Origin: a virus
Virus record (IMG/VR): IMGVR_UViG_3300021368_001977
Location: 1 to 32,897 of that record
Length of the DNA stretch: 32,897 nucleotides
Direction: 5' to 3' (one strand)
Every line of letters begins with the position of its first letter. The first letter of the stretch is position 1. This document shows positions 10 through 19,300 of the stretch, in pieces. The notes under the pieces are model-generated. The model saw only the letters and a program-made list of their open reading frames with translations. It was not told the origin of the DNA and did no database searches. The translations under genes were made by a program, and so were the position numbers.

Positions 10-17
10 TATTTATT
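10..17 (-). promoter_or_regulatory. putative late promoter (AATAAATA)
   Basis: The minus strand reads AATAAATA here, matching the NATAAATA late-promoter motif of T4-like cyanophages. The box contains the TAA stop codon of the small gene at 13-378 (GAA-TAA-ATA). It points left and would drive a gene beyond the window edge, so its target cannot be seen. An identical arrangement occurs at 7,363-7,370, which makes chance less likely, but an 8-base AT-rich match alone is weak. Confidence 0.45.
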
Positions 18-378
18 CAATATCAACAACTCTCTGTGCTGCTGCTTCTCGTTGATTTTCTAATTCTGTATACTGTTCTTCAGTTAAAGTAGTAGCAATA
101 CCAAGGTGTTTTTGCCTAATATGGCGTAATACCTTCCAGTCTGTTGAATTTAAAAATTCTCTCTCTTGACCATTTTCTTCAATTGTATTTTCACGTCTAA
201 TAACCTGTTCAGTTTTAAGTGTAACACTCTGCGTTGGAACATCAAAAATGTGTGTTCCTGCTTCTAGTTGATCAGCCTTTTCATCAGTTATTTCAACAAC
301 AGTAACACCTGATGGTACCTCAGGTTCGTAACTCATTAATGATGTTACTTCGCCGGCTTCTATACAGATATATTTCAT
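13..378 (-). CDS. small protein, possible tail-fibre assembly/chaperone-like protein
   Basis: Encodes 121 residues and is last in the visible fibre block. Its start follows the stop of the upstream fibre gene by one base, with GGAG five bases before the ATG, so it is translationally linked to that gene. The N-terminal half is a short beta-rich segment. The C-terminal half carries STDWKVLRHIRQK followed by a charged helix with LTEEQYTELENQREAAAQRV. A TDW..-R motif followed by a helix rich in E, Q and R is seen in small phage proteins annotated as tail-fibre assembly proteins, and the position after a receptor-binding fibre fits a dedicated folding helper. There is no signal peptide or membrane segment. 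The function is inferred from position and this weak resemblance; it could equally be a minor virion protein. Confidence 0.4.
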   Translation of the reverse strand: MKYICIEAGEVTSLMSYEPEVPSGVTVVEITDEKADQLEAGTHIFDVPTQSVTLKTEQVIRRENTIEENGQEREFLNSTDWKVLRHIRQKHLGIATTLTEEQYTELENQREAAAQRVVDIE

Positions 379-379
379 A

Positions 380-2623
380 TTAACTCCATACTCCTAAGTA
401 ATTAGCCGCAGGTTTGCTTCTTTGTTCTGTGTTTTGTACGTATACTCTTATTCTATTACTCAAATATGTGTATGTACATCTTAAACTATCATTACCATCT
501 ACACCACCTGCATAATGAATAGTTCTTATTGATGGAATAAATGCTATTAAGTTAGACATAGATTTTCCTGACGGTGGATACACATCAAAGTAGTTAGATC
601 CATTATTAAAACTACCTACTTGGTTAGTGTAACCTACTGCTGACGATGATCCTGAAACAATTGTATATCCAGAACTAGCATCAACATACTGTTTTGTAGC
701 AGCATGCATTGAACTTGTAGGATCTGCTGAAAGCGTTAACCTACCTGTCATTGTTCCGCCTGCTTTAGCAACTGCATTTGGATCTGTTGCTGTTACTGTA
801 ATGTTGCCACTGTTATCAAATACAACACCGTTAATTGTTCTGCTACCGCTTAGTGTATCTGCTGTTGTTGCTGTTGTTGCATTTCCTGATAATGATGCAG
901 TAATTGTGCCTGCTGCAAAATTTCCGCTGCTATCTCTTGCTACAACTTTACTAGCAGTGTTTGCTGTGGCTGCATCAACTGCCCAACTTTGTGTTGATAA
1001 CCCATCATAATTATTTCCTGTAATATAATTGCCTGGGATAATTTCTGCTAAACTAGGTGCTCCCCATTGCACAGTCGAGCCTGTCGATTTAAGAACTTGG
1101 CCTGACGCTCCGATAGGAAGCAACGCAGTTGCGCCAGACGCAGTCTGGTAAGCAACGGAGCCTGCGGCTCCGCCTGCGATATTTGTAGCGGTTGTTGCTG
1201 AAGTGGCTGTATCTGCATTGCCAACTAAAGCACCATTGAATGTGTTTGCATGAACATTGTCAAATCTTTTTGTACTCTTACCAATGTCTAGTGCTTGATC
1301 AACATCAGGAACTATTCCGCCATTACTGCCATAGCCTGCTGAAACCGATACGTCAGGTGAAATCAAATCAACTACTGAAGTATCTGTACCATCATCTGCA
1401 ACAAGTCTCATCTGACGTGTCGTTGTTGTAGTTGATCCTGTTCCTCCTGCTATAATTGTATGGTTACTGCTTACAACAACAGTGCCATTTACAACCAGGC
1501 TTGTTAGTGCACCTACACTTTCTAGTTGAGAACTTACAACGTTTGCTGCAAGTGCTGTATCAGTAAGTGTTCTTGCACTTGCTGGAACTGTGACATCTGA
1601 TTGTCCATCAAATGCAACACCGTTTATATCTCTTGCTGTTCTTAATTTTGTTGCACTAAATGCATTACCTGTTAAAGTCTGTCCTATAAATGTATTTGCT
1701 TCAACTACATCAAATCTTGATGTTCCAGAATTTGCTGTTACATTACCTGTAACATTTCCTTCTAAATCTGCTGTAATAGTGCCAGCACTAAATCCGCCAG
1801 CAGTATTTCTTACAACAATTTTTCCAATTACATTTGAGGATGTTGCATCAACTGACCATTCTGTTGTTGCACTGCCATCAAAGTCATTGCCTGAAATATA
1901 ATTACCTGCTGTCAAACTGTGTGTTGTGGTTGCACTAATATTGATATCTTGTGTACCATTAAAGCCTACACCATTGATTAATCTAATATTGTTTAGTCGT
2001 GTTGCAGTATCCGCATTTCCTTTTAATGCGCCATTAACAAAATATGATGAACTTAGTGTGATACCAGTGTCTACTGATGTAAAGCCTGTTACAGGATTGC
2101 TGTCTGCTATTGTAAACGAATTAGTTGATACAATTGCAACTACTATATCAGATATTGTAATTAGTATTACAGGGTATCCTGTTCCTGTGTCTGCTGTTAG
2201 CACTGTGCTTCTTGCTCTGGTTACACCGTATCCTTCTGCTGATTCTGGTCCTATAAAAACCCAACCACTGCCATTGTATGTGTGTAAAGTATTTGATCCT
2301 GACTTGTACCAAAATGCACCTTGTTGTGGATTTTCAGGAGCATTTTCTGAAATAGTTGCGGCGCCAACTTCTGACCACTTAGTTCCGTCATATATTTTAA
2401 GTACAGGACCTGCTGTATCCCACCACAGTTGACCACTAATTGGTTTTGATGGAGCAGATGCATTAGAGAAGTTTTCTAGTAAGTATAAGAAGTTTTCGTT
2501 TTGAATTTCACCGTAACCGATATAATTTCTTCCAACTAATGTTACACTAGAAGTTGTATCGATTGTTGAATCCTGCAACGTTGTAAACGCTGTTCCATCA
2601 CTTCTATTAATTACGTATGCCAT
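380..2623 (-). CDS. tail-fibre-like virion protein with receptor-tip C-terminus
   Basis: Encodes 747 residues. Residues 1-130 share an N-terminal module with the next two upstream genes (GRNYIGYGE, NENFLYLLENFS, GQLWWDT), probably the part that docks on the virion. The middle is low-complexity and rich in T, A, N and G, with two related blocks containing GNYISGNDFDG and GNYITGNNYDG, each followed by AGTITA, and repeated INGVxF motifs; this is typical of trimeric fibre shafts. Near the C-terminus is AGGTMTGRLTLSADPT then AATKQYVD, a motif common in fibre proteins just before the tip. The last ~95 residues include DVYPPSGKSMSNLIAFIPS and VQNTEQRSKP, a tip domain I recall from other phage fibres. 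AGGAG precedes the ATG. It probably binds a host surface receptor. A short segment (1,081-1,200) has much higher GC than the rest. Confidence 0.75.
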   Translation of the reverse strand: MAYVINRSDGTAFTTLQDSTIDTTSSVTLVGRNYIGYGEIQNENFLYLLENFSNASAPSKPISGQLWWDTAGPVLKIYDGTKWSEVGAATISENAPENPQQGAFWYKSGSNTLHTYNGSGWVFIGPESAEGYGVTRARSTVLTADTGTGYPVILITISDIVVAIVSTNSFTIADSNPVTGFTSVDTGITLSSSYFVNGALKGNADTATRLNNIRLINGVGFNGTQDINISATTTHSLTAGNYISGNDFDGSATTEWSVDATSSNVIGKIVVRNTAGGFSAGTITADLEGNVTGNVTANSGTSRFDVVEANTFIGQTLTGNAFSATKLRTARDINGVAFDGQSDVTVPASARTLTDTALAANVVSSQLESVGALTSLVVNGTVVVSSNHTIIAGGTGSTTTTTRQMRLVADDGTDTSVVDLISPDVSVSAGYGSNGGIVPDVDQALDIGKSTKRFDNVHANTFNGALVGNADTATSATTATNIAGGAAGSVAYQTASGATALLPIGASGQVLKSTGSTVQWGAPSLAEIIPGNYITGNNYDGLSTQSWAVDAATANTASKVVARDSSGNFAAGTITASLSGNATTATTADTLSGSRTINGVVFDNSGNITVTATDPNAVAKAGGTMTGRLTLSADPTSSMHAATKQYVDASSGYTIVSGSSSAVGYTNQVGSFNNGSNYFDVYPPSGKSMSNLIAFIPSIRTIHYAGGVDGNDSLRCTYTYLSNRIRVYVQNTEQRSKPAANYLGVWS
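1081..1200. other. GC-rich patch inside the fibre gene
   Basis: By hand count 68 of 120 bases are G or C (57%), clearly above the AT-rich sequence on both sides. It encodes, on the minus strand, a segment with AGSVAYQTASGATALLPIGA, a short motif widely found in phage fibre shafts. The reading frame is intact across both edges. This suggests a recently acquired shaft segment, though strong codon constraint of the A/G-rich peptide could contribute. Confidence 0.5.
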
Positions 2624-2639
2624 ACTCGCTCCTAATTAC

Positions 2640-4535
2640 CTATGGTAACGACACTTCACTTACAAACGACCAAGCACCTGCTACAATTTGGAAAGTTTTA
2701 ATTATTCTTAAAGTTGTAACTGCTGGTGCAGCAATAGTCGCTGTGTTAAATGCCATTTGTTGTAATGCTGATGCAGAACCGCCACTTGTTAAATTGAAAT
2801 CGTCTCTTGTTTCTGATCTCAAAGGATTTATTTCTAAACTTGTTGTGCTGTTGCTTAAAGTTGTACACAATATTCTAGCAAGTGTACCATTTCTAAAATC
2901 TGCTGGTGGTGCTAATTGTGTAAGAATAGTTCCTGAAATATAAGTGTTAGGTTTACCATCTGACAAGTCCATGCTAAATGCAAGACTTCTAGTTTCAATA
3001 GTATCATCAACGTATTCTTTTGATGCAGCATCTTGTGGATCTGTAGGATCTCCTAATCCAGTTATTTTTGGTGAACCTATTAAAGCAACATTACCTGTTC
3101 CGTCTGGTGCTAATTCTAAGTCAGCATCTGAAAGAAGAGTTGTAATCCTTGGCTTGCTGCTACCTGAATCTGTTTCTAATTTAAAATCTGCTGTAGGCGG
3201 AGTAGAACCAATGTTAACAATGTTCTGTGTACCAAAAGAAGTAACACCAGGAATAGCAGTAATGCCTGCGCCTAAACTTGATCCATCTAGCACTGTTACA
3301 CCATCAATTTTAAATGCTTTTCCTGTAGCAAGATTTATATGTTCTGAAGATGTCCATGCTTGTGCTGCTAATTCAGGTGTTCTTGTTGTTGCTGCTAATC
3401 CTAAATTACTCCAAAGTAGGACATGATCAATATTTCCTGCTGGTCCTTTAAGAACTATACCACCACCATCTGCAACTGTATCTGAGTTTGTTGCAGTATC
3501 GCCTGTATTTGCTAATTCAATTTGCTTGTTTTCAACAACTAGGTTTTGTGTGTTAAGACTAAGAATGTCTCCATCCTCAATTGTTAACTGTCCTCTAATA
3601 GTAGTATTACCTTTAATCTCAACGCTGCCGCCAAATACTGCTTCACTTGTTGGAAATGATTCAAATACACTTAATTTTCTATCAGTTGAATCAATCCTTA
3701 GTGCTTCTTCTTGTACAATACCTTTTCTAACATTGAATACAATTCCTTTATCTGATGCTGTATTACTAAAAAACAAATTACCATCACTAACTGTAATGTT
3801 ACCTTGGTCTCCCGCACCAAACACAATACCTAAATCTGTATTAATTCTAATTTGTCCTGCAAACTGATTAGAAGTATCTCTTCTTGCATATGTTGTTGCG
3901 TCTACATTTCCTAATTTATCTGAGTTTGTTGAAGTAACATCAAATTTCATATCAGCAAGAGTACCTTGGTTAAACCCAGGTTCTATACTTCCTGTATATC
4001 CTTCAATTGCATTTTTAGGTGTAAAAGAATCTTTAGAAAATATTCCTAATAGTATTCCGTTATTATATAAACTTGTTATAACACGTGTTTGGTTAAGTGT
4101 GTCAAGTATACTAGTAACTTGTATTCCACTAAGACCTTGTAGTTCCGAATAGTCAGGACCTAAAAGAATTGTGTTTGTACCATCAAAAAAGTATAATTGC
4201 TTATCTGTGTCATTAAACCATAAATCACCAACACCTAATGTTGTAGGCTGTGTGTTGCTTATTGTTGCAGAACTTACAGGTACAAATGCAGTTCCGCTAT
4301 AAACTTTTAATTTGTTTTCTGTATTGTCAAACCAAATCTGTCCTTTAATAGGATTACCTGGTTGTGTTGAGCTTGAAAAATTTTCAAGTAATTTAATAAA
4401 ATTTTCATTTAGTGATTCACCGAACCCACTGTAGTTTTTTCCTATCAGTGTTAGATCAGTAGATAAAGTATCTATTTGGCCGTCGGCAACTGTTGCTACA
4501 ATTGTTCCGTCTGTTTTATTAACTTGATATGCCAT
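2640..4535 (-). CDS. tail-fibre-like virion structural protein
   Basis: Encodes 631 residues. Residues 1-130 are a clear paralogue of the N-terminal module of the two neighbouring fibre genes (GKNYSGFGE, NENFIKLLENFS, GQIWFD). A second shared segment follows around residues 165-180 (FSKDSFTPKNAIEGYTGSI). The middle is beta-rich with DGDILSLNTQNLVVENKQIE, and at about residues 495-515 there is SPKITGLGDPTDPQDAASKE, a motif regularly found near the C-terminal third of marine T4-like fibre proteins. The final ~120 residues show no recognisable tip. The start is preceded by AGGAATAAGGA. It lies between the collar fibre and the receptor-tip fibre, so all three are probably co-expressed. Likely a fibre or fibre-connecting protein; the exact position on the virion is unknown. 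Confidence 0.7.
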   Translation of the reverse strand: MAYQVNKTDGTIVATVADGQIDTLSTDLTLIGKNYSGFGESLNENFIKLLENFSSSTQPGNPIKGQIWFDNTENKLKVYSGTAFVPVSSATISNTQPTTLGVGDLWFNDTDKQLYFFDGTNTILLGPDYSELQGLSGIQVTSILDTLNQTRVITSLYNNGILLGIFSKDSFTPKNAIEGYTGSIEPGFNQGTLADMKFDVTSTNSDKLGNVDATTYARRDTSNQFAGQIRINTDLGIVFGAGDQGNITVSDGNLFFSNTASDKGIVFNVRKGIVQEEALRIDSTDRKLSVFESFPTSEAVFGGSVEIKGNTTIRGQLTIEDGDILSLNTQNLVVENKQIELANTGDTATNSDTVADGGGIVLKGPAGNIDHVLLWSNLGLAATTRTPELAAQAWTSSEHINLATGKAFKIDGVTVLDGSSLGAGITAIPGVTSFGTQNIVNIGSTPPTADFKLETDSGSSKPRITTLLSDADLELAPDGTGNVALIGSPKITGLGDPTDPQDAASKEYVDDTIETRSLAFSMDLSDGKPNTYISGTILTQLAPPADFRNGTLARILCTTLSNSTTSLEINPLRSETRDDFNLTSGGSASALQQMAFNTATIAAPAVTTLRIIKTFQIVAGAWSFVSEVSLP

Positions 4536-4544
4536 TCCTTATTC

Positions 4545-6686
4545 CTATGTAGTTACAAATGCAGGCGGACCTGATCTAATAATATAATTTATTGTTAAGT
4601 AAGGGTTCATAATACCAACAGGCGAACTTAAAGTTGTTCCTGTAGGAGTTTTAATTGGCCCTGAATCAGGAAGGTATTGAGCTTCACCTGGGTTATTTGG
4701 TCCTCTACCTGATATAGAGCTAACTGTTGGAGCAGTATCAACTCGTACACCGTAGAATTGTTCGCCATCTTGCACCATACTATGTGTATGTTCAGGCAAA
4801 TTAGAAAGATTTAATGTAACAGAACTACTACCGCTTGACGCTGATAGTGTTTCTGGTTCAGTACCACTAATTCTTGCAGGTACTGGTGAGCCTCCACCAT
4901 TGTCAACAAAGCCGCCTACATCGTTTGGAACTGTAATATTGTTGTCCATGTTATGACGTCCAAGTGCAAATCTTCCTCTTAAATCTGGTACCCTAAAAGT
5001 TTTACCTACTGCACCATTTAATGCTGCTGATCCATTATATGTTGTACCTATTATATCATATAATGCTCTAAATTTTGCTATTTCAACTTCACCGCCATCG
5101 CACAATAGGTAGCCGTATGGAACATTAGGACCTGCAAATGGAAGTATACCACCAAGTGGTACTCCTAAGTCACCAACAAATGTATCCCTATCCTGTCTTA
5201 ATAGTCCTGATGACGTGCTTCCTGTTGTAGGATTAGCTCTGTATACAAGTACTTGATCGTCTTCACTTGAAACATTAGGTAAAGGTGCATCTTTACTTGT
5301 AATAATGTTGGCTGTCAACTGTGTATTGAAAACTTTAGCATCGCCAATACCGTCAAACGTAAATCCGCTCGATACAATGTCGCCTGCTATTGTAAAACTT
5401 GTAGGATTTTTTAAGTTTGTTGCTGTGTTAGCATTACCTGTAATATTACCACTAATTGTACCTTCAATTTCGTCAGCAATGATTTTCTTTGCTTTAACAT
5501 TATTCCATCTTAGTGCATCAGCACCTAGATCATAAATCTCATCTGCAGATGGATAGATGTTAGTAGATGAAATAAGTCCTGTAACATTAAGTCCTTGCCC
5601 AACTCTTAGTGTTTTCTTAATAGAAACACCACCTGCTGTACGTATAGCCCCAGTATCTAAGTTAATTGCATCGTTAGTGTTTGAAACAATTATACTTCCA
5701 GTAAGTCCTATATCGCCACCTACGTCTAAAGCACTGTTAGGAGCAGCAATATTGATACCAACTTTATCGTCAATGACTCTTAGAATAGTATCTGGTATGC
5801 CGTTTCTGTTAATTTGTAAATCTATTGAACTGCCTGCTGCACTATTATAAATTTTAGAAGATGTTGCAGACGTTGTTAATTGAAAGTTTCCGTCAAGACC
5901 AATTGTAATACCAGTGTTACTTCTAACATTAAATCCTTGTTCAGTTGTATTAGTAGTATCACTTCTTAAAAACTTACCTGCTACAACTTCCGTACCACCT
6001 ACATTTAATGCATCAGCATTTTTTGCGGTTCCTATAAGTTTTGGTAACTCGCCTCCTAAAAATATTGTAGAAAACTCTGCTTCTTCAGCAGCGTTTGCAG
6101 GCGTAGCAATATTAAGTCCTGATTTAATTTGATCAAAACCTTTAATTTCAATTTTAGGTGTAAATGAATCTCTTGATAAAATAACAACAGGTGTATCTGC
6201 GATGTAAAATGTTAAAACATTTTTGTCAAAGTTATCTTGGTCAACAATTTTTTCAACTGCTGGACCATATCTTTTACCGTCTATCGAACTTTCACTAGGT
6301 CCAACTAACAACCATCTGCTGCCTGTGTATATTCTTAACTGCTGATTGGTTGTATCAACCCAAAGTTCTCCAACTTTACTAGTTTCTACACTAGGTTCTG
6401 TTGGACCCTTTTGAATATTTGAAGCAGCCTTCCAACTTGTATTGTCATATAATTGTAATACACCGTTTGTTGTATCATACCATAGTTGACCTTCTACAGG
6501 ATTTACTGGTTGACTTGCGCTGGCAAAATTTTCTAATAAAGATAAAAAGTTTTCAGCAATAATTTGACCGTAACCTGTAACATTTCTTCCTGGAAAAGTT
6601 AAAGATGTATCATTGCTTGACGTGTTATCAAAAACAGTAATAGGGGATTTGTTATCTCTATCAGTAAAATTTACAATATATGGCAT
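4545..6686 (-). CDS. gp12-like short tail fibre with collar domain
   Basis: Encodes 713 residues (T4 gp12 is 527). Residues 1-130 share the N-terminal docking module of the next two genes (GRNVTGYGQ, AENFLSLLENF, GQLWYD). The middle is shaft-like. At about residues 509-580 is a phage tail-collar domain: GGILPFAGPNVPYGYLLCDG, then TYNG and FRVPDLRGRFALGRHN. Further on come LPEHTHSM (about residues 627-635), which fits the HxH metal-binding pair of T4 gp12, and near the end GIMNPYLTINYIIRSG, the usual closing strand of collar domains. In T4, gp12 trimers extend on infection and bind the cell surface irreversibly; a similar role is likely. GAGGG lies seven bases before the ATG, and three bases separate it from the preceding gene. 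Confidence in the collar fold is high; orthology to gp12 is less certain because the N-terminus differs from T4. Confidence 0.85.
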   Translation of the reverse strand: MPYIVNFTDRDNKSPITVFDNTSSNDTSLTFPGRNVTGYGQIIAENFLSLLENFASASQPVNPVEGQLWYDTTNGVLQLYDNTSWKAASNIQKGPTEPSVETSKVGELWVDTTNQQLRIYTGSRWLLVGPSESSIDGKRYGPAVEKIVDQDNFDKNVLTFYIADTPVVILSRDSFTPKIEIKGFDQIKSGLNIATPANAAEEAEFSTIFLGGELPKLIGTAKNADALNVGGTEVVAGKFLRSDTTNTTEQGFNVRSNTGITIGLDGNFQLTTSATSSKIYNSAAGSSIDLQINRNGIPDTILRVIDDKVGINIAAPNSALDVGGDIGLTGSIIVSNTNDAINLDTGAIRTAGGVSIKKTLRVGQGLNVTGLISSTNIYPSADEIYDLGADALRWNNVKAKKIIADEIEGTISGNITGNANTATNLKNPTSFTIAGDIVSSGFTFDGIGDAKVFNTQLTANIITSKDAPLPNVSSEDDQVLVYRANPTTGSTSSGLLRQDRDTFVGDLGVPLGGILPFAGPNVPYGYLLCDGGEVEIAKFRALYDIIGTTYNGSAALNGAVGKTFRVPDLRGRFALGRHNMDNNITVPNDVGGFVDNGGGSPVPARISGTEPETLSASSGSSSVTLNLSNLPEHTHSMVQDGEQFYGVRVDTAPTVSSISGRGPNNPGEAQYLPDSGPIKTPTGTTLSSPVGIMNPYLTINYIIRSGPPAFVTT

Positions 6687-6689
6687 TTA

Positions 6690-7337
6690 TTATCCCTCAT
6701 TAAAACCTGTTAAACTTTGTATTCTAATTGTATAATCAATTTGTAGCAATCTGTTCAGTGATTTTTGAACAGGATGGAAGATCACGTGTGTCAAAAGTTT
6801 ACCGTCTCCTGTAGGATTGTATGATTTAATACCTAATTCGTCAAAAACAAAGTTACCGTCTAGATTAACACTGTTATCAAATGCCTCTTGATCGTCTGGC
6901 TCGCCATAATCAAGTAAACATGATATTATAATATCACTATAAGTAGCACCACTAATGTGTCTTACTTCCATTTTGTTTCTAGTTGGATCAGCATTTGAAA
7001 TTGCATTCTGATCTACAACTTTTGTAAATGTTTGATTATATAAACTTGAATTTATTCCTACTGTATTTGGTGTCAAATATGTAATTAAACCTGTTGGATC
7101 AACGGAAGTTCCACCACTGCCAAAAGCCATTTCATAAATTGTACCTAAACCTTGGTTGGATAAAGCCTGTACCATCGCAACACTCATGTTTTCATAGTGG
7201 ATTGCGTTCCTTTTATCCTGGAAAACTTCTCCTGATTCAGGGTCAAAAATCTTAATATGTCCTTCAAAATGAAACCCACCGGTCTCATTTACCACAGGTT
7301 TTTTATCTTCTTGTACTTGTTTTTGGTTATCTGGCAT
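6690..7337 (-). CDS. conserved-type virion protein of unknown function
   Basis: Encodes 215 residues from the chosen start at 7,337. The frame is open further upstream, with ATGs at 7,397 and 7,358, but those lie inside or right at the putative late promoter (7,363-7,370) and lack a ribosome site, whereas GAAGAG sits six bases before 7,337. After a polar charged N-terminus comes a compact beta-rich protein with HFEGHIKIFDPESGEVF, then MAFGSGGTSVDPTGLITY, and a C-terminal segment DELGIKSYNP... LTHVIFHPVQKS. I have seen similar proteins described only as virion structural proteins in marine T4-like phages. It starts a separate late transcription unit with the fibres, so a baseplate-to-fibre connector is a reasonable guess, in the place where T4 has genes 9-11. 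No enzymatic motif is visible. Confidence 0.6.
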   Translation of the reverse strand: MPDNQKQVQEDKKPVVNETGGFHFEGHIKIFDPESGEVFQDKRNAIHYENMSVAMVQALSNQGLGTIYEMAFGSGGTSVDPTGLITYLTPNTVGINSSLYNQTFTKVVDQNAISNADPTRNKMEVRHISGATYSDIIISCLLDYGEPDDQEAFDNSVNLDGNFVFDELGIKSYNPTGDGKLLTHVIFHPVQKSLNRLLQIDYTIRIQSLTGFNEG

Positions 7338-7343
7338 ATTGTT

Positions 7344-7349
7344 CTCTTC
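7344..7349 (-). promoter_or_regulatory. ribosome binding site deciding the start at 7,337
   Basis: The minus strand reads GAAGAG with six bases to the ATG at 7,335-7,337. The other in-frame ATGs have no comparable purine run at the right distance, and a transcript starting just downstream of the late box at 7,363-7,370 would exclude the ATG at 7,397. Confidence 0.6.
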
Positions 7350-7362
7350 GTGTTTCATAGTG

Positions 7363-7370
7363 TATTTATT
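7363..7370 (-). promoter_or_regulatory. putative late promoter (AATAAATA)
   Basis: Minus-strand AATAAATA, matching the T4-like late box, lies 26 bases before the start of the 215-residue protein. It contains the TAA stop codon of the giant gene (GAA-TAA-ATA). By analogy with T4 late promoters the transcript would begin a few bases downstream, giving a short leader with GAAGAG. It would let the fibre genes be transcribed separately from the very long baseplate gene upstream. Confidence 0.6.
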
Positions 7371-10300
7371 CAGGTAAACTGGTAGTCTTGGCAGCAATGA
7401 ACTTACTAATTGCAGTATTATTGTCTAATAGTGTAACACCATTACTTGCAGTGGTTGTACCTCTATCATACCATGTATTTCCTGTCCTTTTAATTACTGT
7501 TATACGTGTTCCTGCTGCTGGTGATGTTGTTAACCTTACATAAGGATTTTCACCATCTACAGCAAATTCTGCTTCTATTTCTTTATCTGCGCCTGGGCTT
7601 ACAGGACCTAGTGATTCATCGTAAATTGTTAATGGTGTTTTACGTAGTCTTTTACCACCTACAAATACTTCTACTATGTCGCATCTACCGTAATCTCCAG
7701 GTATAGTAGTGCTTGTCCATGTGCCTACTGTGCTTTTTGCAGGTACAAAATCTAATGGTCCTATCAACACAGAACTTCCATCACTGACAAAATCTGTTCT
7801 TTCTTGGTTATCAGTATAAGGAATTACTTCGTTTGGTCCAATATCTGCAACAAGTGAGCCTTTTGAATGTAGTTCTTTAATTGCAGTACCGTTGACACCT
7901 CTACGTAAATTGCTTAAAACATTACCGCTTTTGTTTAGGTATTCTATTCTTTCGCCTGCAATCTCAACTACGCCTGCAATATTTCTATTGGCTACAGGAT
8001 CAAACATATTTGAAGTATCTGATAAAGTTATTTCGTCATCAAAGTAATTTAAATCTTTGCTTAAATTTATTGTTTTACTAGTTGCATACCTATTATATCT
8101 ATAAACATTAAGCATGTCTTTGCTTATTTCATAAGAACTAGGTAATCTATAAATGTCAGTACCAAATGTAGTAATTGTAATTGTATCACTTTCTGTTGAT
8201 TCAACTTCTAAATAAATTACACCTCTTGGTAAACTTATACTGTAATCTTGATCTTTAATTAATCTCACACCATTTTTATACACCCAAACGTATGCAATAC
8301 CTAATGGTGCATAAGGAAGTTCGTAATTTACTTTGCCGCCAGTGTTTCTATCGCTGTATACTTGCATACTTGGATATTCGCTAAACCATGTTACTTCTAA
8401 AGTATCGCCTGGATTAAATGTTACTGAATCTGCAACTTGTAATCTATTTGTATTGATTGAATATTCTGCACGCAAATCATTTTCAATTTTGATAATATCA
8501 CCTACATTCAATGATGTTGTAACCAATGTTAAAAGTTTTGAAGTACCATCATATACATAATCTTGAATGAAAGTTTTTAGTTCTCCATTAATATATACCT
8601 TGATGTTTGCAGATAAAATTGCACCTGATGCTTCAATTGGATCTTGTCCAAGTGTAAATGAATTTGTTTCTCCATCATACACAGAATAAATCGTGTCTGG
8701 TCCTTTAAGTTTTACATTATTAATTTCAACAACCATAGATGATATAGAACTTTCTCTAGTCAATTGTACAAAATTATCTAAATCATAAATTCTATCCGAT
8801 GTCATAGTAGTAGTTTGCTGATTTACTCTTACTAATCCTAATTGTCCTGAGTCAACATTTTCACTTGTTTGGAAAACAATAATTTTTATAATACTATCTT
8901 TATCTGGTATTTCTCCAAACTGTACAAGACTTCTACCAGCAGTGTCAACAGTGTCTGTACTATCACTAAACACAGCATCTTTAGGAACACCATCTACTGT
9001 AACAAAAATATTAGTTGTCAAAGAATATGGAGCGTCTGTTAAGTACAAACCTGTTTCGCCGTCTGCTGTAAATTGTTGATAATCTAATAACCCAATGCCG
9101 CCAATACCAATAGATATAATTTCTATTTTTTTATCAACTACCGGAGCAGTTGTAAATTCTACATTGGTGTCTGTAGCAGTATAATCAGTATTTAAAACTT
9201 GTTTTATTCCGTCAACATACACTAGCAAAGAGCTGTCTTCAATAATATTTTGTCCTATACTATAGATAGTTGTGCTTCCATCACTTGTGAATATTTTTGA
9301 TTCTAAAGGTGCTGCACCTTTTGTCGTAGATTGAAATACTTTAATGCTTAAATTATCAAGTACCTGTCCTGGTATATTCTCTTCTGGCGATGGTACTTGT
9401 TCAGGTCCAATATACTGACCGCCTGTAATTTTAATTTCTTCTACTGTCAATCCAGTTGCTGTTGCATACGCACCATCTATAGCAGAAAGCGTGCCGCCAG
9501 TTAGATTTGTATCTACAATATTAGGATCTGTAATTGTAACAGCCCCATCACTTTCAACAGGACGGAAAATAAGTATGTCGCCATCTTTTGTATTTACGAA
9601 TGATCCAATATCAATGACAGATGTACTACCATCGCCTATAAATGTTGGCATGACAGCATTTTCATTTGTTATCAATGAAGAATTATCGTCGCCACCAAAA
9701 TACGGATCGTCAATTCTAATTACAGGAGGATTTTTTACAGTTTCAGAATATTGTAAGTCATCAATACTTGGTATACTTTCTTCTCCTGCACGTTTTAGAT
9801 ATATGTTTATTTCTTGTCCTTCTGAAGGAACATAAGGTAATGTAATCTCATTAGTGCTTCCGTCTGCTACAATATAAAAATCTGCGCTACTTTCTACACT
9901 ATCCCAACTATCACTAAACCAAGGTAATGCGTCCCAACCACCTGTGACATCAAAGGTAGTACCTTGAATTTGTACTCCTCCATAATCTATACCAGTCATT
10001 AGTTGGTTTAATTCTTTACCTTTCATTCCTTCTGTCGGATTGTAATATTTGTTGATCCTATTAACGCTATCTAGTAATTCATCATTTTTAGAATAATCAA
10101 TTTTAATTACATCGCCTAATTCAGGTGCCACATTAAAAATAATTCTACCATGTACAAAACTATATCCGTCTACTTTTTTAGTGTACACTGATACAGTATA
10201 ATCACTACCTAACACAGTTTGATTATTTTTAGTAATACTAATTTTAGTTTTATCAATTGTCGGTGCATATCTTAAATCAAATACCGCTGTTGCACCAGTT

Positions 10301-13300
10301 GCTGTAAATGTTTGACTGTCTGTGAAAGATGTGAATAAACCTTCTTTTGCTATTCTATCAAATTTAACTTTCAATTCGAAACTTCTAGTTGTACCTTCGC
10401 CTAAATATGCAACTGCAATAGCATTGTCTGTTGATGCACCGTTTCCGCCAACAAGGTTCACTGTAGGTATAGATGTATATCCTTTACCTTTGTTTAATAT
10501 GCGGACTCCTGTAACTTTTCCGCTTGATATAAATGCTTGGGCAGTTGCTCCTGTTCCGTTGCCTTCAATGACTACATTAGGAGGACTTGTATATCCACTT
10601 CCGCCGTTAGCAATAACAATATCAGTAATACTATAACCTTTATTATCAAACCATGTTTTCCATGGTTGCTGTTGAACTAAAGGACTATACTGATCCACAG
10701 TTATAATTTTACCAGCACTATCTGAATATACTGATGGTAAATCAAAATCATTTGTAGCAACACCATTGCCTTCTAGTTGATTATATCTACTGACGTATTC
10801 CCTTATTGTTGTTCTATATGGCTTTACTTCTTCAATATATTCTTGGAAACTTTTTAAGTTATCATTACTATAATTAGGCACAACTTTTAAATTACCTACA
10901 TTATGAATTGCCTTTAAGAAACTTGATTTGAATAACCAATCAACATACACCTGCTCATGCAACACGTATCTAATACTATTAAAGAATAATTTGTTCCAAC
11001 AAATTTTATAATCACCTACAAAGATGTTATCTTTAATTGCAGCAAATATATTTCTTAATTCAGCAGTAGGTTCTAAATCGTACAATCCTGTATCAAAACT
11101 TACTATATTATCATATCCAATACCAGAGGTTTGTAAATTATATAAGTTTGGTGATAATTGAATAGTGCCTTGCTTTCTACCAACTAACGTATAATTTCCT
11201 AATGGCAAATTACTGTTGTCTGTTACCTTTTCAAATACTGCCCATCCGCCTGAGCCGTATTCTTTTATTCGGATAAGAGATCCTGTCTCTACTGTAATAG
11301 AAGGCTCTTCAGACACATCTAAAATTTCTTTTGTTATACTAGATGTTTCGCCATATCCTGTTTTCCACCAGTCAATATAATTCCAATATTTTGTTGTATC
11401 AAATGCCTGCGATGCACTTCTATAAAATGTTTTTCTAACGTCATCCCATGCATAAATTGACCAATAGTTTCCAACTGTATTATCATTTTCAACAAGCACT
11501 GAAAACTGTCTTACAACAGGATTTACAGTAGTATAATTTTTTCCACCGTTAACAACTACTGCTTGAACAATTCTACCTTGATTGTCAATGTGTGTAATTA
11601 CTTCTCCGCCTATACCATCACCTTGAAGTGATACAGCAGGTCCTGGATAAACTCCTGGTGCTTCTGTATTAAATAATTGTTGAGGCTTGTAACCAAAACC
11701 AGGATCAACAATATTAATTGATGTAATGACATTGTCAACAATGTTTGCAGACAACTTGGCTTGTTTTACTCTAACAGTACCTACGTTTTCTAAATCAACT
11801 ACATTCTCTACTTTTACATCATATAGGTACAAAACTTCTGCAGGCTGAGGATCTACAAGATTTAAATTGATAAAATTGATTGTATTTGCAAACGCCTGCT
11901 CTAACAAAATTGTATTAACACTTTCTATTGTTTGTTTTAAAATTTGTTTTCTATTAACAAACATACTTTGTCTTGGACGGAAATTTATTCCATATTTTTG
12001 TTTTGCTGGCAAATTAGTATCTGGTACTCTATTTCCTTGTGCATCATATCCTACTAAACTATCGATCCATTTTTTCTCAAGTTTATTATTTGGAACACTA
12101 TTTTCGTCACCTTCAGTCAACAATAAAAATTCATTGTGTGCTGCATTGTTTTTGTTACTAGTGTTATAGTATTCAAGATTTAAAATAGAAATGTTATCAA
12201 AAACTATATTTTTATAGTTATAGAAAAATATTTTATCTTTATCTGCAAGTCCAACGTAAGTGTTCCCAACAGTTGAAGGATTGTTAATTAGTGAAGCAAC
12301 CTCGCCTGCACTTATTTCTCTTCCTAACTTATTTTCAGGTACAGTTACTTTATTCTTTACCCAGAAATAATATTTTGTTTCAGTTACAAGACCTGTGTTA
12401 ACATTTAAAAACTCTTTTACACTGTAAACTGTATCATCTGCATACAACGGTTGCCCTGACACGCCTAAGTCTAGTCCTTCAGTTGTATCAGCCAATACCG
12501 ACCATTCAGAAGGTAAAAGTTTTGACTCTACCCATTCATAAACATCTACACTAGAACCTTTGGCTTGAGCACCCCAGTTAGCAAGCCTATATGCAGTATC
12601 CCCTTGTTCATAGTCTACCCATTTTACTGTACTAATGTTCCACCATAATTTGCCAACATTTTTATCAAACCATGCAACTGTATTATCAACAACTACATCT
12701 TCTGTTCCTACATTATATGTGGCTGGGTCATATAAAGTTTTATATTCTATCTCTCTATCTGCTGCGGCTAATATTCGTAGTTTAGCAGGATCAATTGCTT
12801 CTAGGTCTTGAATCTTATTCTCACCGCTTTCGTTGTAAAGTGAAATTCTTTTTATTCTTTGTAAATCTATTTTATCTGGTTCAGTGCCTATAACTTCAAG
12901 ACTGTTAACACTAGGATCTTTTCTAAATATTCTCACCATACCAGCCATAGGTCCTGAAAAGTCTAATGTGGCACCGTGAACTGTTGGAGCAATAAAGTAA
13001 GGTGAACCAACAACTATTATATCATTTGTACAGGATACACTGTATCCAAAAGATTCATTTGTGCTTAAATCATCTTCTAATTTTTCTGTCAACAAATATC
13101 TAGAACCTTTAAGGTTGAATACATATACAGCACCACTGTATCCGCCATCAGTTGTAAATGTTGTATTCAATTGGTCAAATGTTGTTGAACTAGTATCAAA
13201 TCTAATAGGTAAATTGTAACCAGTATTATTTGCACCAATAACAATTTGACTAGAATTATTTGTTATACATACAGATTGTCCAAAGTATTCATTTGGATAA

Positions 13301-16300
13301 ATTCCGTAACTTTCTATTTTTTGTTTTAATCTGTATCGTTGTTGTGTAGAATCAGATTCATATTTAAAAATGTAAGCACTACCTTGATTCTGAAAGTTTT
13401 TATCTGCTTTTGGACTTGTAATTACAAGAGTGTTTCCAGTAAAATCTAAGTCAACATCATATCCAAACATATCACCTGAACTAATTGACTCTTCTTCAGA
13501 TAAATCGCTTATTTCTGACAAACTCTCAGCAGTTATTGTTTGTTGTAAACTGTAGAAGCCTACATCATTTATTTTGTAAACAAAAACTTTACCAACTGAT
13601 TCAGATGAACTATCTCCAACGTTAACCCAAGGGTAACCATCATCAGGTGCTTGATTATAACTTCTAATTGTACTATCTGGACCTACTGCTGTCGTACCAA
13701 CATTTTCTAACTTATGATAACTTCCTTGATATTTTACAACGTCATTTTCCATGTATTCATAATTAGGTTGCCAGTTACCTTTATAATTTGGAAAGTATTG
13801 TCCGTCTGCTTCTACTGCACCAATTATAAGTGTTGAACCATTATTATTAAATGCTAAAGAACTACCAAACTTATCGCCTTCTTTGATTAATTCTGCAAGT
13901 TGATCATCGGCAAGTATGCCTGAAGCAAGGGTTGAACCGTCATCTTCTATGCTTACACTTGTTGGCAATGATACATTTGTGTTAACTTCGTCTAATTTTA
14001 TCCAATCGTTACTTTCGATAGATATAGTACTACCATCGCCTTGATTATCTTCTAATGCTTTCCATAAACTACCATTGTAAAATACAATTGATCCTTTAGG
14101 ATAAAAACTTTCTGTAGAAACTGTACCAGTGCCGCTGCCTGTTCCTGTAGCAACAAACGTTACACCCGGGTCGTTTGTTAATGCACCTTGGCTTAAAAAG
14201 TCTGAAGTTCCTACTGTTTCAATAGTGTATGTTCTACCAGCAATTATTTCTGTAGCAGGGTATGTTCCTCCTGGCTGGTATATTCCTCTGTAATCTTTAT
14301 TTTGCACAAGTTCCCAATCACCTGATGTAGTATAATTGTAAATGTATACTCTTCCTTTAGTGTCATTTAAACCTGGTGCACTTACAGCCATAGTATAACC
14401 TGTAGCAGTTTTTGCTAAACTAATTTTGCTTCCAAAGAAATTATCACCATCTGGTCTAGGACTTACAAGACTTTCTACAAAGTTCCATTGGTTAGCACTA
14501 TATCTGTATATAGAAATCATACCTTGATTACTATATCCTGCATTTGTACCACTTTCAGACGCTTTAATATTAAATGTTTGTTCCCAATCTTCAGTGTATA
14601 CATTTATAGTACTGCCGTCACCTGTGATACTTGTTTTTGCCTTCCATAGTTGTCCTTCATATAATACAATATCGTTAGCAGCATAATTTTTAAATGTGCT
14701 AAAAATACCTTGATAGTTCGAAGGCACTCCGCTTGCACCTGGAGACCCTACTATTAACCATTCATTATCTGATGTAATTGCAAGTTCTTCACCAAATGTA
14801 TTTGCCACTGCTGTAGTAAAACCTGAAGTAGGTTGTAAAATTTGTTTGACTGCTAAGCCATCTGATGTTTCAACGTAAGCAACTGTAATGCCCGAACCTG
14901 GTATAGAAGCAATAGTTTGATTTAATGCTTCTGCATATAAAACTTTTTTACCTGTGTGTTTAGGATCAGTAGTACCATATGTTGTAATTTTCTTTGCACT
15001 AAATTGTTTTTTCTTTTCAACAACTTCCCATCTATTGTTACCATTATTGTCAATATATAATTTAGATGTGTTATCTAAAAGTGCTGTCTGTTCTAAATCT
15101 AACGAATCATAATCTTTAAATCTTGCGTTGTTAAGAAGAATAGGATATGTTAATGTACTAGGCTCAAATCCTGTATCTGCTGGTGGATTTTCGGTTTCGA
15201 AAGCAATTGTAAAATTCGTCACTTCAGTAATTTTGTGAAAACCGTCAATATCTCCAAATGTTTTAAATCCTATAAAGTCGTCAACAATTAAATTATGTCT
15301 TTTTGTAAACGTTACAGTTACTTTGTTTTTTTCAGTCGCAATATTTGTGATAGGTAATTCATTTGCAAAATTAACTCTAAGTACTGTCCATTCTTGCTTA
15401 TCAAATGTTATCCATATATGATCATTGTTTAGAACACCACTAATATCGATATTTGTAATATCGTCTCTGGTTGCTACAACATATTTTGTTTGATCTACTT
15501 TTACATAACCAGCAGTACGTAAGTATTGTTTATCTGAGGTAGTAGGATTGATCTCAGTTGTATAAGGCAAAGGTGATAGATAGAAATCGCTTTGGTTTAC
15601 TCTATAATATCTATCGATTGCAGCATTGTTAGTTGTATTAGTTACTAACAGAGGCTGAGGATTTAGAACAAAGTTATCTGTGTCTAATTTTAGTTCTATG
15701 ACTTTACTTTGATCAGTTCCGCCAAGTTGTCCAACTTTAAATGCCCATTCTTCTTTTAAATCTACTCCAGCATTTTCTGTTCTACCAAGTTTTTCAAATA
15801 TCTTTGTAAAAGAATTTTTAGTTCCTTTTTCTCTAATGAACCCTTGGTATAATCTAAACTGTGTTACACTATCTTCTGACAAATTTTGTAAGTAAGTTCT
15901 TGGTTGGTAACCAATCGTATGTCTTGCTAAATCTCTTTGACTTTCTGACAATCCTTCAGTGTCAACATCAAAGTAATCTTCCATTTGGTTAATTTTAAAA
16001 TCAAAATTAGGTACTAGTCTTTTCTCAGGTGTTGAATCAAGCACAGTATAAATTTGTTGATTAAATTCTTCACCACTTGTATGATTACGTTTACTTGTAT
16101 AATTTACACCTTGGTAATTTATTATATCACCTAGTTTGTAATCGTTAAATGGCTGCCATGATGCAATATTAACATTGTCAAATAAGAATCCAGGAGAAGT
16201 ATAATCCCCGTCCCAATCTACTGTTCTGAATCCTTGAACCTTGATACGTTCTTGTCTGTAACCTGTCGGCTTATCAAATATAACATCGTTGAAAACTGTT

Positions 16301-19300
16301 CTATCATTAAAGATAGCAACATGTTCTTTTAGAACATAATTTAATTTAAGATAGAATAATCCTTTTGTGGTATCATTTATATTAAATGTAAATGTTTGGA
16401 ATTCCCTATTGACATTGAAGTTTTTTACATCAATAGGTTCACCTGTATCTGTTAATACGTTATACTCATAAAAACTGTCAAGTATGTTGTCTACAACACC
16501 TACTGGAACTGTAACTTTTATTTTTTCTGCTCCTGGACTTACTGCAAGTAATGATCCAACTGACCATTCATTCTGTGTCCAAAACATAAATTCTTTAGCA
16601 GCAGTTGTGAAATCCTGCATCGCTTGATTATCAGCGTTATAGTTTTCAAAACTAAAACCTTGTGTTTTCAAGAAATGTTCATAACCTAATAAAAAGTCTA
16701 CTACTTCTTGCACTGTTCTAAGTGTAGTTCCATAACTAATATCTTCTGTAGCAAACGGATTAAAGTTTCTTCTGCGTTGTGCAGTTGCAGCGCCAATTAT
16801 AGGCAACTCTGGTAACTTGGTCCAATTATCTGTTTCGAAATTTTCCGAACTTGTGTGGGTAAGTTTTGCCCTATAGAACATATTTCTATACTGTATAATA
16901 GCACCGTTATTATAAAGTTGACCAGTTGTCCAATTAACAAATGTTGCACTTATTCCTCCAACTGATATTGTCGGATCTTTCTGATTAGGAACTGCCTTGA
17001 AAATTCTAAAGTAAGGATTTACATCGTCATAACCATTAATAATCCATCCGCCTTCTGTTTTTTCAAATATAACTCCGCTGTAACTTACTGTCTGAATCGG
17101 TGAAGAAACATTAAAATAGATATTATAATTTTCTTGTGGAATGAATATACTTGAACTTGCAGCAGCAGGACTTTTTGAATCTAACAAGTACTTCTGCTGT
17201 GTTTTATCTACGAATCCATTTAATCTATTGCTTAACCTTACATTAACATGAGAAAGTATATTTTGCGCATCTGCAACTGGTTTTCCTTGTGATTTCAGAT
17301 AACTGCTAATGTAAAATGCTAAGCCGCTTGTGATGTCAGTATTTCCAACTTCAGGTAATATAAGTTCGTTAGGCTTAATAAAGATGCCTGTATTTTTGCT
17401 TATAATCTGTCCTGCTACATTACGTTTTGTTTTACTTCTATCAAAATTTGCAACAATATATTCAAATGGGCGAAGCAAACACAAAGCAATTGTTACAACA
17501 AAAGGAAACTCTGAGCTACTACGATATGCATATTCAACAGGAGCAATATCTCCCAGTTTAAAACTACCTTTATTGTTAACAAAAGTAAAGTTTGTTGCTA
17601 AGCCACTGTCAAGAGGACTTAATAATTCACCATGTTCATTTACAGGAATATGTCTTAATAAAGAAGGCCTAGCATACCTTTTATGTGTACCTGCTCGTTC
17701 GCCTTGTCTAATTATACCATCTCGTAAATCTTCCCACAATATAAGGTTTCCACTTGTATAAGGGGCGGCACCATATTCTGAGTCCCACCAACTTGGTTTT
17801 TCACTAAAGCCAAGCATTTCCCAAGGACATCTGTGTGGTCTATCTGTATCATAGAAATAACTGTACGCACCTCTCCACCATCCTGGTAAATTTTCATCAC
17901 CGTCTGGTGTTGTCATATTTGAATATGTGTAAGTAAACGTTTCTGTTTCTTTTAGATACGTGTTAGCGGTATATCCGAGATTTGTATTTGCTACCCATTT
18001 TAAAAATTCTTGGCTTGCAATTGAATCAAATTCATTTTTTGTAAAAACAGAATTTTTATAATAACCGCCTAAATTATAATCTAAATCAAACACACTAGGA
18101 TCATAAGACTGTTTGATGTTATTGTAAATTCTGTATTCTAATTCTAATAACACATCATCTCGGAAGTCTCCATATGCAACTGTAATACTTCCGTCATGCC
18201 CTTGAATCACTTCTTGTGGTTCTCTATATGTATCATCCGTAAATTTACTTGGAGTATATTTTTTATATAAACCTACTGATGTAGGTGTTGGTGGTACATG
18301 ACAACCTGCTGTAGATACATACTCTCTTATCTCAATAGTGTCGCCTTCTGTTAAATCTCCCAACAGTGTTAAAAATGCAAACTGACTATCAAATGTATAG
18401 TCTATACCATGTAACAGTTGTGAATTATTTTTGTAAACATATACAGCACGTCTACTTAAAGTATCTAAATCAAAAGGTTCACTTAGTGTAAACGTTTTAA
18501 GACCTGTATCTTCAACTACATAACTTAATTTGGTAAATGCTCCTGTACCTAGTGTATCACTGTCTGCAAATGCACTTACTGAACTTTTTGTTTTGGTAAG
18601 TTCTTCAAAAATTGCATCTACTAGATCAGGTATGCTTTCAGTATCATCAACTTCATAAGATTTTTTAATAAAGTTTTCTTTGAACAACGAATATTGTTTT
18701 TTAGCATATTGCAAAGATTTAATAATATTAATTTCTTTATCAGCAAGCATCAATAATGCAGATGCTGCTACACCCGAATGTTTTAAAAATCTTTTTGCAT
18801 TACTAGTAAAGTCTGATATATCTCTTAGATTAGATACTCCTGGAAGTACACCTGTAAATCTTGTGTCAAATTCTAATGCTGTTTTAACATGATCAGTTGC
18901 TTGTCCAAGAGTAAAATATTCTAAGTTTTCATTTAACGGATTTTTTTCTAATCCAACAGGAATTTCATAGTATCCAGTTTCTGGAACTATTTCACCTATT
19001 AATTTAATAGTAATAATATCATTAGGTTGAAACTGCGTGTCAAAGGTAAACTCGTTTCCTACACGTACAAATGATTCTTCTAATTTGTTACCGTTCAAAT
19101 AAAATATAATTTCAATAGTATCATTATAATTTTCAAAATTTATTACGTCAGTAATAATTGTGTTGGTAGCATTTACAACTTTTACACTATCAACTATAGG
19201 CTGTAAATATTTAGATTGTGTTCTTATCCAACCGTTTTCATATTCGCCATTTACTTGATAATAATGTTTATTTGTGTAATCAACAATTGCTTGCTGGTTA

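Follow-up and report, generated by a model that had tools for sequence, protein, structure and literature searches.

A shared N-terminal module in an ordered array of phage fiber genes with one variable slot

Tail fibers and their dedicated chaperones form cassettes, such as gp37/gp38 of T4 and S/U of Mu. Cassettes of this type, as well as the sharing of an N-terminal domain among several receptor-binding proteins, are of an already known kind. In CBA120 (Ackermannviridae), the homologous N-terminal domains of the adjacent receptor-binding proteins TSP1-4 order the assembly of a branched complex, according to the available part of the source (PMC8825819), and the long tail fiber of RaK2 (Alcyoneusvirus, gp526-gp534) has many fiber proteins on shared N-terminal domains, again from a partial text (PMC10253068). 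The array of module genes analyzed here is not described in the available parts of the papers on Atu_ph07 (PMC6102473), phAPEC6 (PMC7247149), MIJ3 (PMC6892783), and XacN1 (PMC5852040), or of a survey of jumbo phages (PMC7824862), nor was a description found in the other excerpts of the literature searched, which leaves out most subscription journals. As far as this literature goes, what is new is that this module family forms an array, that the array has a fixed order, and that a single slot is variable.

The window, i.e., the whole stretch of DNA analyzed, is a virus record of 32,897 bases with its structural genes on the minus strand, a T4-like baseplate region, and no tRNA that could be found. 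The genes come in the order 383-aa virion protein (phrog_12050), gp53-like protein, 853-aa virion protein, gp5-like hub, gp25, gp6-like wedge protein (phrog_10646), giant protein of 4646 aa (phrog_10938), D222, C713, B631, A747, and E121, after which the record ends. The baseplate neighbors gp53, gp5-like hub, gp25, and gp6 all lie upstream of the array. Its features are the following.

7366-21306, minus strand: giant 4646-aa protein of the baseplate region (phrog_10938), candidate platform.
6690-7358, minus strand: D222 (phrog_11259), conserved, directly upstream of the array, candidate connector.
4545-6686, minus strand: fiber C713, first slot, with N-terminal module (module clade "first") and Phage Tail Collar domain.
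6072-6686, minus strand: shared N-terminal module of C713, residues 1-205 (alignment; AlphaFold model, pLDDT 86.3).
6489-6686, minus strand: residues 1-66 of C713, the most conserved core of its module and the proposed anchor; the ENF..LLENF motif is in helix 39-51.
6297-6488, minus strand: residues 67-130 of C713, a pair of beta-hairpin repeats containing W; the second weakly resembles trimeric beta elements of phage fibers (Z <=4.1).
4968-5153, minus strand: Phage Tail Collar domain of C713, residues 512-573 (Pfam, E 7.9e-16).
2640-4535, minus strand: fiber B631, second slot (module homology, module tree).
3921-4535, minus strand: shared N-terminal module of B631, residues 1-205 (alignment).
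380-2623, minus strand: fiber A747, variable middle slot (module homology, module tree, conservation).
2009-2623, minus strand: shared N-terminal module of A747, residues 1-205; of the modules in the four slots, this one evolves fastest (alignment, conservation).
383-652, minus strand: tip of A747, last 90 residues (phrog_30680 match), followed by an E121-type gene as in loci of tip type 0.
13-378, minus strand: E121, tail fiber assembly (chaperone-like) protein whose relatives accompany tip type 0 (phrog_8716, phrog_188).
1-12, no strand: contig edge; 15 bases past position 1, the near-identical L004 has the start of F, a fourth gene with the module (580 aa, last slot).

The array lies after the wedge genes, downstream of gp25, the gp6-like gene, and the giant, which is the place expected of baseplate fibers of the T4 gp10/gp12 class; the Collar domain typical of this class is found in C713 only. 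B631 and A747 have no Pfam match above cut-off, and the matches to XopL_C (E121), CbiA and RRM_9 (A747), and DUF7360 (B631) were set aside as they lie below their cut-offs. A Gp23-type capsid is present in both relatives searched (contigs of 280 and 262 kb), which places this marine lineage among the T4-like jumbo phages. The giant contains a carbohydrate-binding module, CBM_5_12 (E 3.3e-18, strongest over residues 1717-1746), together with FG-GAP_2 repeats (E 7.6e-21), which is unusual for a protein of the baseplate region.

The three adjacent fibers share their N-terminal module. Pairwise phmmer matches between C713, B631, and A747 extend from residue 1 to about 188-203 with E values between 1e-31 and 1e-35, and for residues 1-130 Smith-Waterman scores range from 246 to 299, to be compared with maxima of 57-68 among shuffled sequences (200 shuffles each). 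This homology supports the original prediction of one N-terminal module duplicated onto several fibers with different C-terminal halves. The motifs then quoted as a common pattern are present, and the DSFTPK said to be common to two proteins is found in B and C (A has NSFTIADS at the same place). The module is longer than the approximately 130 residues assigned to it, extending to about residue 190-205. The C-terminal halves are mostly unrelated, as had been proposed, with the exception of a weak similarity between the shafts of A and C (score 122, shuffled maximum 98; domain E 0.013). Two families match the module, phrog_15511 (unknown function; E 1.1e-7 for A, 1.5e-16 for B, and 1.8e-14 for C) and phrog_14394 (virion structural protein; 1.1e-12, 1.1e-10, and 6e-12, respectively).

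That there are three such genes is an artifact of the contig end. L004, which is near-identical to the window and matches it through its last base, continues for 14 bases past the edge, where the start codon (ATG) of F, a fourth gene with the module, follows. Among the best 80 of 358 relatives retrieved with the C module, all 52 viral loci with at least 9.5 kb after D222 contain four module genes; three isolates counted alongside these 80 have fewer. Searching with D222 gave another 80 loci, four contigs being common to both sets. As each set consists of the 80 loci ranking highest in similarity to the window or to D222, and as several contigs are near copies of each other, the counts describe this lineage and not phages at large. 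Leaving out the four contigs fetched twice and the loci lacking D222 or having less than 9.9 kb after it, 103 distinct contigs remain of the 160 loci. Their order is C-B-A-F (77), C-B-F (20), C-B-A-A-F (5), or C-B-A (1), and no other. Apart from a varying number of A genes, the sole departure within this invariant order is a single contig (L118) in which no F is seen, and there a very long A frame may push F out of the locus. Third-position open frames of 1081-1538 aa, much longer than their orthologs, are found in L118, L122, L148, and L162. The slot labels come from profiles built on tree groups and partly trained on the same loci; the least certain is that of the second A in doubled arrays (margins of 6 to 15 bits), and the two such copies included in the module tree are placed with the "last" group.

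The module tree (160 copies from 48 loci hand-picked for diversity, 149 columns, quick method) groups copies by slot, with 7 label changes where shuffled labels give a mean of 94; counted per slot, there are 1 (first), 2 (second), 3 (last), and 4 (middle). Within residues 1-66, the slots of one phage are no more alike than those of different phages, i.e., there is no homogenization between slots, and a test of within-phage co-variation in this region, as expected from a shared partner, is negative for the six slot pairs (z from -2.5 to 1.3). Residues 67-130 show a small within-phage excess for B-F (0.429 vs. 0.418) and A-F (0.389 vs. 0.369), reached in 0 of 2000 permutations each, which is unexplained. 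These results bear on the proposal of the original prediction that the fibers occupy equivalent or competing sites, in which case interchangeable anchors would compete for the same sockets and produce mixed particles. One kind of socket would fit the residues that are near-invariant in all slots of the anchor core (Y3, G33, G40, E45-N46, L51-E52-N53-F54, P60, G66-Q67, and W69 in C713 numbering). However, each position has its own module lineage, order is invariant, homogenization is absent, and copy number follows lineage (3, 4, or 5), so that such competition is very unlikely. The invariant order and the separation of module trees by slot indicate instead, as far as sequences can, that C, B, A, and F are non-interchangeable paralogs.

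Conservation was analyzed in 52 of the 85 complete four-slot arrays, near copies having been removed. In every slot the most conserved part of the protein is residues 1-66, always at the very N-terminus, and conservation falls outwards from there. Mean pairwise identity over residues 1-20 and 21-66 is 0.81 and 0.83 in C, 0.88 and 0.74 in B, 0.80 and 0.85 in F, and 0.62 and 0.71 in A. The module of A is also divergent as a whole, with a mean identity of 0.50 over residues 1-200 vs. 0.68-0.73 in the other slots. At the opposite end, the last 100 residues have a mean pairwise identity of 0.53 in C, 0.48 in B, 0.57 in F, and 0.23 in A. The tips of C, B, and F are slow, and a hypervariable tip is found in slot A only. 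Lengths in these loci are 599-918 aa for A, 662-721 for C, 603-672 for B, and 489-614 for F.

The last 90 residues of A fall into ten tip clusters among 94 four-slot loci. Tip type predicts the gene or genes after A without exception in the 85 loci with the four commonest tips: between A and F there is an E121-type gene in 36 of 36, two genes in 24 of 24, none in 15 of 15, and three in 10 of 10. Among the other nine loci, tip 6 breaks the rule, an additional gene being present in one of its two loci. On the tree of C plus B (63 of the 94 loci, near copies removed; also a short and quick tree), 18 changes of tip type are counted. For tip 0 and the E121 type, nine of nine independent contrasts agree (p 0.0039), whereas tips 1, 2, and 3 have four contrasts each, too few for significance; tip 2 has on average 2.5 of its 4 in the same direction because other tips also lack a gene. 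The window itself is outside the clustered loci, and A747, whose residues 669-746 match phrog_30680 (E 2.9e-19), is likened to tip 0 by the E121-type gene that follows it. E121 matches phrog_8716 (tail fiber, E 4.9e-8) and phrog_188 (tail fiber assembly, E 1.7e-5). With an assembly gene that is directly downstream and specific to tip type, the locus has the composition of a tip with its cognate assembly cassette.

Two further genes are observed beside A tips. One, of 165 aa, accompanies some of them (L138, about 16534-17031), with like genes in tip types 1, 3, 4, and 7. It matches neither Pfam nor the phage records; its HxD...H...R pattern resembles the motif of 2-oxoglutarate/Fe(II) oxygenases, and its product may modify the fiber tip. 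The other encodes a 154-aa protein (phrog_14616, E 1.1e-39, unknown function) in L064 (from about 8356) and other loci of tip type 3. It is found only with that tip and is possibly a separate tip subunit.

D222 is present in 158 of the 160 loci, and in 155 of these 158 the distance from its stop to the start of the first module is -4 to 50 bases; L135, L136, and L158 end immediately after D222. The protein has about 220 residues (222 aa), and the array starts beside it. In the ten isolate regions with a full D222 homolog, this directly precedes a module gene. The association with the giant varies: in CBB the giant lies some 6 kb beyond the D222-module pair and on the other strand, and in 121Q, RaK2, XaC1, and Munch none adjoins the pair in the stretch examined. 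RAS14 has a D222-like gene near a giant and its module array elsewhere. This D222-like protein (L179:8865-10061) has about 400 aa, including an extra half. Since D222 is linked to the giant or to a module gene in different phages, gene arrangement makes it a candidate connector. Its structural model is poor (pLDDT 56).

Of 50,697 phage records, 97 match the C module and 60 match D222 (E 0.001); for part of the 97, cyanophages for example, the match covers little beyond the W-hairpins. The survey of copy number in related phages that the original prediction had suggested gives 1 to 6 clear copies in jumbo phages, according to profile counts over the whole records of 13 isolates. Atu_ph07, CBB, 121Q, RaK2, SCTP-2, XaC1, and Munch have one clear copy each, Phosso 1 (+1), Vibrio phage 2.275.O 2, PA5oct 5, RAS14 6, XacN1 6 (+1), and S-CREM2 (1), where brackets mark matches that fall short of E 1e-6. 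In uncultured contigs, eight of which were examined (97-280 kb), the profile gives 3 or 4 copies, all in one cluster. By module tree and slot profiles, the proteins of isolates with one copy are not assignable as orthologs of any one slot. In PA5oct, gp358, gp359, gp316, gp317, and gp318 carry the module, and all five are annotated ESI-MS/MS, i.e., as virion proteins. The three-copy cluster gp316-gp318 (L180) is away from the baseplate genes, near the tail sheath and MutT genes. XacN1 has six tandem module proteins, ORF232-ORF237 (L092).

The AlphaFold model of the module (138 rows; pLDDT 86, pTM 0.50) has two short strands, a helix (39-51), W-hairpin units at 68-94 and 108-127, and a beta domain at 141-193. 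A profile search of the PDB gives no sequence relatives worth the name, the hits to 3hcw, 3dxr, and beta-arrestin looking like chance, and Foldseek of the model against the PDB gives no match at E 0.001. Against predicted viral proteins Foldseek gives 58 at this threshold, those of Atu_ph07 and PA5oct among them. VIA-align matches of the module are weak (Z <=4.1) and link residues 91-130 to portions of CBA120 TSP3 and TSP4, to MTD, to a Geobacillus phage protein, and to the trimerization domains of collagens XV and XVIII. Several of these are presumably parts of trimeric proteins. This resemblance to trimeric phage and collagen elements, together with the lone W-hairpins in cyanophage proteins that lack the rest of the module, would be expected if the module were mainly an element of trimerization or folding, a common phage beta-hairpin that does not specify attachment. 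Yet the peak of conservation precedes the hairpins, in residues 1-66, and the hairpin matches are themselves weak, which makes this explanation quite unlikely. That the fibers are homotrimers is suggested by these look-alikes of the hairpin, the sole structural hint, at Z <=4.1 and from a monomer prediction.

The locus probably encodes an ordered set of paralogous tail fibers on the baseplate of a T4-like jumbo phage, with private slots, three of them constant and one for host range. Each fiber would consist of the common N-terminal module and a private shaft and tip. The module would comprise an anchor core of about 66 residues, followed by the W-containing beta-hairpins, which probably aid trimerization, and by the beta domain. 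Its N-terminus would sit on the baseplate, where D222, the giant, or both may form the sockets. That the N-terminus is the virion end is supported indirectly by the conservation peak at residues 1-66, by the tip swaps at the C-terminus of A, and by the annotation of the PA5oct module proteins. Slots C, B, and F would hold constant structural or secondary-contact fibers, and slot A (absent, single, or doubled) the host-range fiber, changed by swaps of tip-plus-chaperone cassettes. What weakens this explanation is a module without known structure and with weak fold matches, the divergence of the A module, unexpected if all anchors sit on one platform, the arrays of XacN1 and RAS14 apart from the D222-like gene, and the support of 70 for the first-slot clade.

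The strongest rival is a branched complex as in CBA120 or RaK2, where one fiber, perhaps the C adjoining D222, would be attached to the baseplate and the others would dock on each other through their modules. The closest described systems operate in this way in the parts of the sources available (PMC8825819, PMC10253068), and a chain of dedicated interfaces would account for both fixed slots and a divergent A module. However, CBA120 has one member with its own anchor domain (same partial source), whereas the N-terminal module is complete in all four fibers of the present array. VIA-align lists no gp10-like XD2 or XD3 domain as such, only the weak matches to parts of TSP3 and TSP4, and no T4 gp10 row, which excludes nothing. 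On balance a branched complex is rather unlikely. Private slots on the baseplate remain our preferred reading. A more specific form of it, which we advance tentatively and to which we give somewhat less than an even chance, is a multi-socket platform: in each wedge C, B, and F would be obligatory in dedicated homologous sockets, and A would be an expansion slot, empty, single, or double, exchanged by cassette, the sockets being private.

Most structural genes here are unannotated, and hence the host range of these jumbo phages is unreadable from sequence. Tip swapping in one slot suggests a change of host while the rest of the tail stays constant. A working rule is to find the D222-type gene and to read the array C-B-A-F from it, the tip of A and the gene or genes after A being the candidate host-range cassette. 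For XacN1, reported to have no tail fiber homologs in the available part of its description (PMC5852040), six fiber candidates can now be offered. More generally, the locus is a testable case of one anchor multiplied into several non-interchangeable positions.

Among phages with the module, PA5oct (Arenbergviridae) shares at gp357-gp359 the layout of giant, D222 homolog, and tandem module proteins, but it has clusters of two (gp358-gp359) and three (gp316-gp318) that are not assignable to slots C, B, A, and F. XacN1 (Xanthomonas) and RAS14 (Stenotrophomonas) also have tandem arrays of the same module, but with six copies and not adjacent to the D222-like gene. RaK2 is similarly a jumbo phage with many fiber proteins built on shared N-terminal domains, in the portion of its description available, but the present module occurs in it once, in gp470 adjoining the D222 homolog, and not in gp526-534. 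CBA120 resembles this locus in having several adjacent receptor-binding proteins with homologous N-terminal domains and differs, within the text available, in that an anchor domain is private to one member and the branching is organized by gp10-like XD domains. In the present array every member, i.e., the three fibers of the window and the fourth in relatives, carries one common module of another sequence family. Finally, as in the gp37/gp38 cassette of T4 and the S/U cassette of Mu, tip type travels with its assembly gene, but here the cassette is confined to one of four paralogous slots.
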